Under the pieces are notes generated by a model that was not told the origin of the DNA, searched no databases, and saw only the letters and a list, made by a program, of their open reading frames with translations. From Flavobacteriales bacterium (GTDB lineage Bacteria; Bacteroidota; Bacteroidia; Flavobacteriales_C; GCA-002722245): a stretch of 38,423 nt of DNA. The stretch lies in assembly GCA_029251005.1 (NCBI GenBank), contig JAQXEE010000119.1, forward strand, positions 1 through 38,423, read 5' to 3'. A program made the position numbers and the translations under genes. This document shows, piece after piece, positions 20,962-23,028 of this stretch (within the stretch, counting starts at the first letter, position 1; every line of letters starts with the position of its first letter).

Positions 20962-21115
20962 ACTCTTGTTGTATTCTTCTAAATAGGTAAAAATAGAGGA
21001 GAAGACCCTTTGTTTCAGCTGAAAAATCAAAAGTTATAAACGAGAAACTATTGAGAAGTGGAATAAATAAAAAAAGCGATTTTGTTTTGGATGGCTTTTT
21101 GAGGGAAATGTTTTT

Positions 21116-22756
21116 TTATTTAAAAAACTGATCAAAACTAACCCAACCTTTTCTTTGGTATACCATATCGGGAAAATTTGGAAAGTTATCAGGCTTGACA
21201 GGACTTGCAAGAAATTTATTTAATTCAGCTTTATTTGAAATATTATTTGTTTTTACTACACTTAATGCATTTTCATAACTCATAAATTTTCGCCTCTCTT
21301 TTCTGTGCTTCGCACTCCATAAAAAGTCTTTAAATCCTTTCCATCCTTTTTCCTCGTATTTCCGAACAACATTAGCTGGGATGTCTACAGGTTTTTCAGC
21401 TAAATGATCATATTCGCCTTTACAATAAGAAACCCACTCGACGGAACTAGTAAGTCCAAGTGTGCGAACAAATTTCCGGGCTTCAGAAAACTTTCTATAT
21501 TCTAAATGAGCATAAGGGAAAGCTTCAGAACCGATCCAATCACCGATTCCAATCCAACCTTTGTCTTTGTATACTCCAGATGGGTTTGCAGGGATGTTAT
21601 TTGGTCTTTTAGGTAGGTTGGGAGACTTTCCTGAAATATATTTATGCCATCCTTTGTAATCCTTTATTTTTAAGGAATTCACGAACTCCTTTGCTTTCTC
21701 GTAAGGAAGGAACTTACTGTATTTTTGACGGTGAATATTACTTTGTAAAAAGTCTTTATACCCTTTCCATCCAATGTTCTGGTATTTTCGAGCAACATTT
21801 GTAGGGATATCAAATGGTTTTTTTGGAAGCTTTGGAAGGTCACCTTTGCAGTATTTAATCCACTTTTCCGAAGAAGTTAATCCAAGCCCGCGTGCGAATT
21901 CTCGTGCGCTTTCAAAGTCTCTGTATTTCCTTTTAAAAGGAGCAATAGTAAAGGTGCCAAACCAATCACCGTAACCTTTCCAACCATTTCCTTTGTATAC
22001 TAATTCTGGAGAGTTTGGAATATCATTAGGTTTGGGGTCTTGATTAGGGAGTTCACCTTTAATGTATCTCAGCCATTCTTTAAGATTCTTAAGATTAAGC
22101 TTATGAACAAAATCTCTAGCACTTTGAAAATCCCTAGCATTTGATAATCTGCGTAACCTTCTATGTTCTTTGGCATTTAAAAAGTCGTTCATTCCATTCC
22201 ATCCTATATCTCTATATTTTCGAGCAACGTTTGTTGGAATATTATTTGGTTTTTTAGGTAGATGAGAGAATTCACCTTTACAATAGCGAAGCCAGTATTC
22301 AGATGAAGTTAGACCCAATTCTTGAGCAAATTTTCTTGCATCTTCAAAAGGTCTGTATGATTTCGACTTGCGTTTGTTCTCGGTTCCTAGCCAATCGTTA
22401 TATCCATTCCATCCTGATTTTTTGTAATAAATATGAGGAGATGCAGGTATCTCTGGTGGTTTTAACCCGAAATCATTTGGGTCCCAATTACACCATTTTT
22501 TCCATTCTTCGGTATTATTAAATCCTTTTTCACGAACTTTATTTTTTGCATCTTCATAAGAGAGAAATGGGACTTTTTCAAAAGATCCAAGCCAGTGTTT
22601 CCAACCATTCCAAGCCTTGTAGATTTCGTCTGGATTTGGAGGGATATCTGAAGGTTTTAAGTTCTCAATGGTGCAGTATATTGCCCATTCGTAACGGTTT
22701 TTTAAACCCTGTTTCAATATAAATTCTCTTGCTTGAACGAAATTTCGAAACTTAAT
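21116..22756 (-). repeat. eight tandem coding repeats, unit about 215 bp, super-period 432 bp
   Basis: The protein units correspond to DNA units of about 213-216 bp. Alternate units are more alike: TATTTTCGAGCAAC occurs at 21783 and again at 22215, exactly 432 bp (144 codons, two units) apart. The divergence between copies is considerable, so these are old coding duplications, not a fresh DNA repeat array. Confidence 0.8.
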
Positions 22757-22765
22757 TTTTGACAT
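21116..22765 (-). CDS. eight-repeat protein, phage-integrase-repeat (INT_rpt)-like, no catalytic domain
   Basis: A 549-residue basic, Trp/Lys-rich protein made only of eight tandem units starting near residues 4, 65, 136, 208, 280, 351, 422 and 492. The last six are spaced 70-72 residues apart. Each unit has a shared plan: an aromatic-rich entry (YRxFExAREF), a leucine/glycine step (LGLTSSxxW), W-x-x-Y-C/I-K-G, a proline patch (KPxxIP), then KY or VY and GWxGxxDWxG. This is the pattern I recall for the Pfam phage-integrase repeat (INT_rpt), which has no proven function. Units 3, 5 and 7 share NVxRKY and DFL; units 1, 2, 4 and 6 share GW followed by DW or HW and G, and unit 8 is divergent. No tyrosine-recombinase, helicase or other domain is present, nor signal peptide. 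A -7 box 24 nt upstream supports the ATG at 22765. Confidence 0.85.
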   Translation of the reverse strand: MSKIKFRNFVQAREFILKQGLKNRYEWAIYCTIENLKPSDIPPNPDEIYKAWNGWKHWLGSFEKVPFLSYEDAKNKVREKGFNNTEEWKKWCNWDPNDFGLKPPEIPASPHIYYKKSGWNGYNDWLGTENKRKSKSYRPFEDARKFAQELGLTSSEYWLRYCKGEFSHLPKKPNNIPTNVARKYRDIGWNGMNDFLNAKEHRRLRRLSNARDFQSARDFVHKLNLKNLKEWLRYIKGELPNQDPKPNDIPNSPELVYKGNGWKGYGDWFGTFTIAPFKRKYRDFESAREFARGLGLTSSEKWIKYCKGDLPKLPKKPFDIPTNVARKYQNIGWKGYKDFLQSNIHRQKYSKFLPYEKAKEFVNSLKIKDYKGWHKYISGKSPNLPKRPNNIPANPSGVYKDKGWIGIGDWIGSEAFPYAHLEYRKFSEARKFVRTLGLTSSVEWVSYCKGEYDHLAEKPVDIPANVVRKYEEKGWKGFKDFLWSAKHRKERRKFMSYENALSVVKTNNISNKAELNKFLASPVKPDNFPNFPDMVYQRKGWVSFDQFFK

Positions 22766-22789: not shown

Positions 22790-22797
22790 CAAAAATA
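22790..22797 (-). promoter_or_regulatory. -7 promoter box for the eight-repeat protein gene
   Basis: Minus-strand TATTTTTG matches TAnnTTTG and ends 24 nt before the ATG at 22765. No clear -33 TTG is seen. It indicates expression from a native-type promoter. Confidence 0.5.
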
Positions 22798-22864: not shown

Positions 22865-22879
22865 AAGGAATGATTCCTT
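22865..22879. promoter_or_regulatory. odd-centred 15-bp palindrome between divergent genes
   Basis: AAGGAATGATTCCTT reads the same on both strands apart from its central base. It lies in the 263-bp gap between the repeat-protein gene and argS and could be an operator, though nothing else supports this. Confidence 0.25.
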
Positions 22880-23004
22880 CGATGAGCTAGTTAATTAAGC
22901 TAATTTTGATCAAGTTTGGTTTGTCAATATCATGAAAATATAAACCTTATTGTTTATTTTTGAGGCAGAAAATAGAAAGCCTTATCCTATTTGAATAATT
23001 AATG

Positions 23005-23012
23005 TAATTTTG
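23005..23012 (+). promoter_or_regulatory. -7 promoter box for argS
   Basis: TAATTTTG matches TAnnTTTG and ends 16 nt before the argS ATG. Two other TAnnTTTG matches lie upstream at 22901 and 22955. No convincing -33 TTG is placed for any of them. Confidence 0.45.
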
Positions 23013-23028
23013 CCTCAAATTTTCAACC

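Follow-up and report, generated by a model that had tools for sequence, protein, structure and literature searches.

A conserved, enzyme-free array of integrase-type repeats beside ftsK in a genus of marine Flavobacteriales

The window analysed here, a stretch of 38,423 nucleotides from a genome of a marine Flavobacteriales genus, encodes a protein of 549 residues made only of repeated units. Its gene lies on the minus strand, and the plus strand of the same interval (21116-22765) holds numerous stops. The gene and its units, with their scores against a model of the family, are as follows:

22765 (ATG) to 21116 (stop), minus strand: coding sequence of the repeat-only protein, 549 aa (from the ORF list and translation; orthologues L007, L008 and L009)
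22589..22750, minus strand: unit 1, residues 6-59 (63.3 bits)
22388..22567, minus strand: unit 2, residues 67-126 (68.0 bits)
22178..22357, minus strand: unit 3, B type (TNVARKY, with an HR-rich linker behind), residues 137-196 (71.8 bits)
21959..22135, minus strand: unit 4, residues 211-269 (72.4 bits)
21746..21925, minus strand: unit 5, B type, residues 281-340 (71.4 bits)
21533..21712, minus strand: unit 6, residues 352-411 (68.1 bits)
21320..21499, minus strand: unit 7, B type (NVVRKY), residues 423-482 (71.3 bits)
21122..21286, minus strand: unit 8, the most divergent and fastest evolving, residues 494-548 (48.6 bits; 47-69% identity between orthologues)

The eight units are of ~55-60 residues, spaced by 66-73 residues, and there is no other domain: unit 1 starts at residue 6 and unit 8 ends 1 residue short of the C-terminus. 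Their consensus is Y/F-R-x-F-E-x-A-R-x-F-x-x-x-L-G-L-x-S-x-x-E-W-x-x-Y-C-K-G ... K-P-x-x-I-P-x-x-P-x-x-x-Y-K-x-x-G-W-x-G-x-x-D-W-L-G. When the protein is compared with itself, the top peak is at an offset of 142 residues, and the second at 71. Units 3, 5 and 7 share 60-68% identity among themselves, versus 18-45% for the remaining pairs. Because these three are near-copies, the array has a two-unit super-repeat of 142 residues and is better described as an alternation. The initial annotation had read the whole product as eight units of about 71 residues; the eight units, with nothing else, stand, but the alternation with its 142-residue period fits the array better. The protein is basic (104 K+R versus 62 D+E, pI 9.7) and has a mass of 65 kDa; the repeat regions of the seven relatives examined have pI values of 8.7-9.9. 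No other gene of its genome carries such units.

Catalogued as an "integrase repeat", the unit is known but nearly unstudied. Our search of the literature and of structures returned almost nothing on it: no DNA-binding experiment, solved structure or functional paper on the INT_rpt unit was found. The initial annotation had assigned the repeats to this family. A Pfam scan with INT_rpt (PF14882) gave no match to the protein at E ≤ 1, and none in the whole genome from which the window comes; the Pfam, PHROGs, NCBIfam and PADLOC profiles gave weak sub-threshold matches to the protein or none. Homology was recovered by another route. The repeat-only protein of the sister genus (554 aa; G007, L005) matches INT_rpt with 36.9 bits, above the cut-off of 26.5. 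The best plasmid match in a tblastn search is a VPA1269/GmtZ protein (L031), with gmtY adjoining, which aligns across residues 6-549 of the window protein (E 7e-18) and itself carries eight INT_rpt units (174.5 bits) plus Integrase_2. A model made only from the INT_rpt-positive plasmid proteins L031 and L033 retrieves all eight units of the window protein (118.3 bits; best of 200 shuffles, 4.4 bits), and an HMM built without any sequence of the window genus or the sister genus gives 386 bits, with eight units of 40-58 bits each (best of 200 composition shuffles, 7.9 bits). Models of the helicase, IS66 and sister-genus arrays score 430, 288 and 362 bits, respectively. Since homology was shown in this way, we class the protein as a divergent INT_rpt-like array that, taken alone, falls under the curated threshold. 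The type first proposed was thus correct, shown transitively through the sister-genus protein and GmtZ, and the negative outcome of the direct search, which was to have told against it, is overturned by homology. Chance or low-complexity repetition without a common fold, to which the negative single-sequence Pfam scan could point, has virtually no likelihood left: it is refuted by the shuffles, 200 of which reach at most 8.7 bits against 118-430 bits for the protein, and by a repeated fold that is predicted with confidence.

This fold was modelled with AlphaFold2 for units 5-6 from 51 alignment rows (pLDDT 89.9). Each predicted unit comprises a helix of ~10 residues, a turn, a helix of ~8 residues, a proline loop and two five-residue helices. 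The full-length model shows eight beads (mean pLDDT 81, pTM 0.33) joined by low-confidence linkers, as would be expected of beads on a string. No relative of the protein or of its unit was found in the PDB by sequence or by fold (Foldseek). The predicted two-unit fold matches a viral protein of 309 aa, a length shared with ORF338 of Xanthomonas phage XacN1. Giant-virus SF2 helicases also match it, but less strongly. Helix-turn-helix-like profiles match the first pair of helices, with HTH_50 exceeding its cut-off of 27 in a single orthologue (33.5 bits); in the window protein itself these matches are below cut-off. The positions that vary between units and yet are fixed across orthologues cluster in helix 3 (SPxxxYK, alignment columns 45-49) and around columns 59-60, plus 19 and 23, and we regard them as candidate DNA-reading positions.

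The order argS - repeat gene - ftsK - LolA-like - NlpC/P60 - fba is kept in all four genomes of the genus that contain the region, with repeat proteins 75-88% identical to that of the window; a fifth assembly lacks argS and ftsK along with the repeat gene. Units 1-7 are 68-95% identical to their own orthologues, far above their identity to neighbouring units. Between the two closest genomes, the dN/dS of the repeat gene is 0.118 (ftsK 0.138, argS 0.082), indicating strong purifying selection, and among 26 genes its codon usage is the nearest to the window average. No mobile-element, phage or integrase gene was seen among the ORFs of the window, nor any tRNA, and the domain scan found no catalytic domain in the protein, in line with what had been said of the surroundings from the sequence. 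Synteny, dN/dS and codon usage likewise back the earlier suggestion of a domesticated or free-standing gene: it looks like a domesticated, vertically inherited array. A recent horizontal gain is ruled out by codon usage and synteny. So is the decay of an adjoining enzyme, as the 263 bp upstream hold no enzymatic or GIY-YIG remnant.

The DNA flanking the gene bears on its relation to ftsK. Three features were annotated:

22790..22797, minus strand: TATTTTTG, possible -7 box of the repeat gene, with no TTG partner at 17-23 nt
21071..21100, minus strand: weak hairpin and U-run after the stop (-3.3 kcal/mol, z -2.9), missed by the generic scan
21028..21038, minus strand: TATAACTTTTG, between the hairpin and the ftsK ATG, identical in the alignment of four of four genus genomes

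The repeat gene stops 154 bp ahead of the ftsK ATG (20961) on the same strand, which agrees with the first estimate of about 155 bp. At the place of the weak hairpin, three relatives of the genus have a strong terminator-like hairpin with a U-run (-17.6 to -20.9 kcal/mol, z -5 to -7), and TATAACTTTTG is probably the -7 region of the ftsK promoter. These hairpins and the conserved promoter-like box suggest that the repeat gene and ftsK are separate transcription units; on account of the hairpins we reject an operon of the two. In the sister genus, separate contigs carry argS and ftsK, and the repeat protein is on a 3.7-kb contig without either. The ftsK neighbourhood is therefore kept within the genus (four of four genomes) but not beyond it, and this genus-specific adjacency provides no evidence for a role in segregation or for any functional tie to FtsK. 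A native-type -7 box had also been noted before the start of the repeat gene. The motif TATTTTTG is indeed there, but it carries little weight because it has no -33 partner and occurs 36 times within the window. Between argS and the repeat gene lies a palindrome, AAGGAA-tga-TTCCTT (22865-22879), which is possibly an operator; the closest relative (G004) retains its arms. Just upstream of argS, a 9-bp inverted repeat (TTTGAGGCA at 22959-22967 and TGCCTCAAA at 23011-23019) is absent from G004.

An array without an enzyme of its own might act in trans, as a targeting subunit that recruits a helicase, a nuclease or the Xer/FtsK machinery to a chromosomal site, e.g., near dif. The repeat gene adjoins ftsK, three tyrosine recombinases are encoded elsewhere in the same genome, and the nearest units outside the family include Mrr-helicase arrays (G163, 41% identity over the aligned region; 430 bits). 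However, the hairpins of the three relatives and the conserved box stand between the repeat gene and ftsK, the sister-genus relative is on a contig without ftsK or argS, and no fixed enzyme partner was seen. We consider this arrangement unlikely.

The proteins that carry the unit are varied. Units are C-terminal to Mrr_cat_2, ResIII and Helicase_C in the Bacteroidia sequences L022 and L023, and to RNase_H_2 and DDE_Tnp_IS66 in L024 and L025, with the IS66 part also in L026; in a genome of another class, L061 shows by sequence similarity an RNase_H/IS66-like architecture with four units. Across the phylum the units are rare, present in 11 of 395 genomes of the class sample and 2 of 395 of the phylum sample. 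Viral contigs gave nothing when scanned with peptides from the window protein or from L022, or with a first DNA motif, and a second, degenerate DNA motif of the unit retrieved 38 ORFs. Twelve of these have GIY-YIG ahead of 2-5 units, two have Mrr and a helicase, two (on large contigs) a helicase and a methyltransferase, and one a treble-clef domain; some are repeat-only (e.g., L075, L085). In L091 and L104, DUF559, DUF2726 and PvuRts1I-like (PD-(D/E)XK-like) matches follow the units, all weak and under cut-off. Free-standing arrays thus occur on viral contigs and also on plasmids (L032, L033). The initial annotation knew the repeats as attachments of recombinases, which holds for Integrase_2 in GmtZ but is too narrow, as other DNA enzymes carry them; nor are the homologues always beside an integrase, as it had proposed to check. 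With fusions to several kinds of DNA enzymes and other free-standing arrays, the lack of an integrase is not strange in itself. C-terminal modules of DNA-cleaving or DNA-transfer enzymes, such as GIY-YIG and IS66, classically choose DNA sites. The common denominator of the partners appears to be DNA targeting, and we infer that the unit is a DNA-targeting module.

Several of these architectures deserve a record of their own. RNase_H_2 (with a Cas4/RecB-like N-terminus) followed by an IS66 DDE domain and 2-4 units (L024:1-3072, L025:4646-7618, L026:5250-7037, L061:2383-5748) is an unusual architecture for a transposase. At least three Bacteroidota genomes have it; L024 and L025 belong to a single genome. 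Mrr_cat_2 and an SF2 helicase precede 3-8 C-terminal units in L022:5502-8981, L023:8471-11416, L068 and L097, and G055 (L027) holds a broken copy of such a protein. The viral GIY-YIG nucleases with tails of 2-5 units (L072, L084, L069, L078, L092, L081 and others) are possibly an undescribed class of homing endonucleases. On another viral contig (L083:3284-5065), an HNH-looking stretch (CCALTG...SVDRIDSDGAYTIDNIQWV), unconfirmed by Pfam, lies ahead of five units. The free-standing array of a Shewanella plasmid (L032:3868-5783) is directly 3' of a gene for a replication-terminus binding (Tus-like) protein.

This range of partners bears on two further explanations. The array might be a relic or an immunity component of a mobile or defence element (a homing endonuclease, a transposon or a restriction helicase), the leftover units masking sites for protection. 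Every identified fused homologue is a mobile-element, viral or restriction-like protein, and PADLOC restriction profiles match the enzyme part of the helicase fusions. Yet the window protein has no PADLOC match, its housekeeping locus is conserved under strong purifying selection, and there is no enzymatic remnant upstream, and we find this explanation very improbable. Alternatively, the Trp/Pro/Gly-rich beads could form a scaffold that binds a partner protein or RNA, also in the enzymes that carry them. The helicase fusions and the Trp/Pro-rich surface would permit this, as would the flexible bead string of the full-length model, but the partners of the unit are overwhelmingly DNA-cleaving or DNA-transfer enzymes, GIY-YIG and IS66 included, and we deem a scaffold quite unlikely.

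We therefore favour, as the probable explanation, a stand-alone, multivalent, sequence-specific DNA-binding array without catalysis. Architecture, charge and helix-turn-helix-like helices suggest the DNA binding, and unit homology, the DNA-enzyme partners, the bead fold and domestication are all consistent with it; the fusions to SF2 helicases would fit RNA or protein binding too. Each unit would be a small helical bead, made of a helix-turn-helix (FExARxFxxxLGLxSxxEWxxYCKG), a KPxxIPxxP loop and two short helices around YK..GWxGxxDWLG, and flexible basic linkers would join the beads. The array would bind a long DNA site, with a short stretch contacted by each unit, much as modules at the C-terminus of a homing endonuclease, transposase or recombinase would, minus the catalytic domain. 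It may act by occupancy, as a regulator, an architectural protein or a road-block, or else compete for an enzyme at the site or recruit one there; we propose a regulatory or architectural role. No target site of the array was found. If the target is read unit by unit, it should hold a sub-site repeated three times, since units 3, 5 and 7 are near-copies. The window protein is thus a testable object: a string of beads with a predicted three-fold repeated target.

A bolder version, doubtful though conceivable, is an array that reads DNA in a modular way, with a TALE-like logic but an unrelated fold. Helix 3 and adjacent positions would let each unit recognise a short stretch, mobile elements and giant viruses would use the units to aim unrelated enzymes, and the genus would have domesticated an array as a stand-alone chromosomal DNA-binding protein. 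If the units are indeed modular, they would make a new kind of DNA-reading scaffold. The presence of the unit on several unrelated DNA enzymes and in a conserved enzyme-free array would recast the "integrase repeat" as a general DNA-targeting module.

One of the closest named systems is the VPA1269/GmtZ protein of Gamma-Mobile-Trio elements, which shares the unit and its landmarks, has eight units in L031 and matches the window protein end to end. The window protein differs in lacking the Integrase_2 (tyrosine recombinase) domain and GmtX/GmtY neighbours and in lying off a mobile element, and its units, besides being longer, diverge too far to reach the Pfam cut-off. By sequence, the C-terminal arrays of the Mrr_cat_2 and SF2 helicase proteins (L022, L023, L068, L097) are among the closest, with 42-57% identity to units 1-7 and likewise eight units in L022, but the nuclease and helicase parts (Mrr_cat_2, ResIII/Helicase_C) are missing from the window protein. 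The viral GIY-YIG nucleases (L072, L084) have the unit where homing endonucleases carry their DNA-binding modules; they have only 2-5 units, and a catalytic domain that the window protein lacks. In GIY-YIG homing endonucleases, the C-terminal region binds DNA and chooses the site, and that of I-TevI includes a helix-turn-helix (PMC1564403). NUMOD and other DNA-binding modules of homing endonucleases are alike in working, as small modules strung behind nucleases; the first two helices give sub-threshold NUMOD-like and HTH matches, short of significant membership by sequence. The repeat-only relatives (L005 of G007, L075, L085, L032 and L033) are free-standing arrays like the window protein, but they are found on viral contigs (L075, L085), on plasmids (L032, L033) or on the 3.7-kb contig (G007). 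Among these arrays, conservation as a chromosomal gene is shown only for that of the window.
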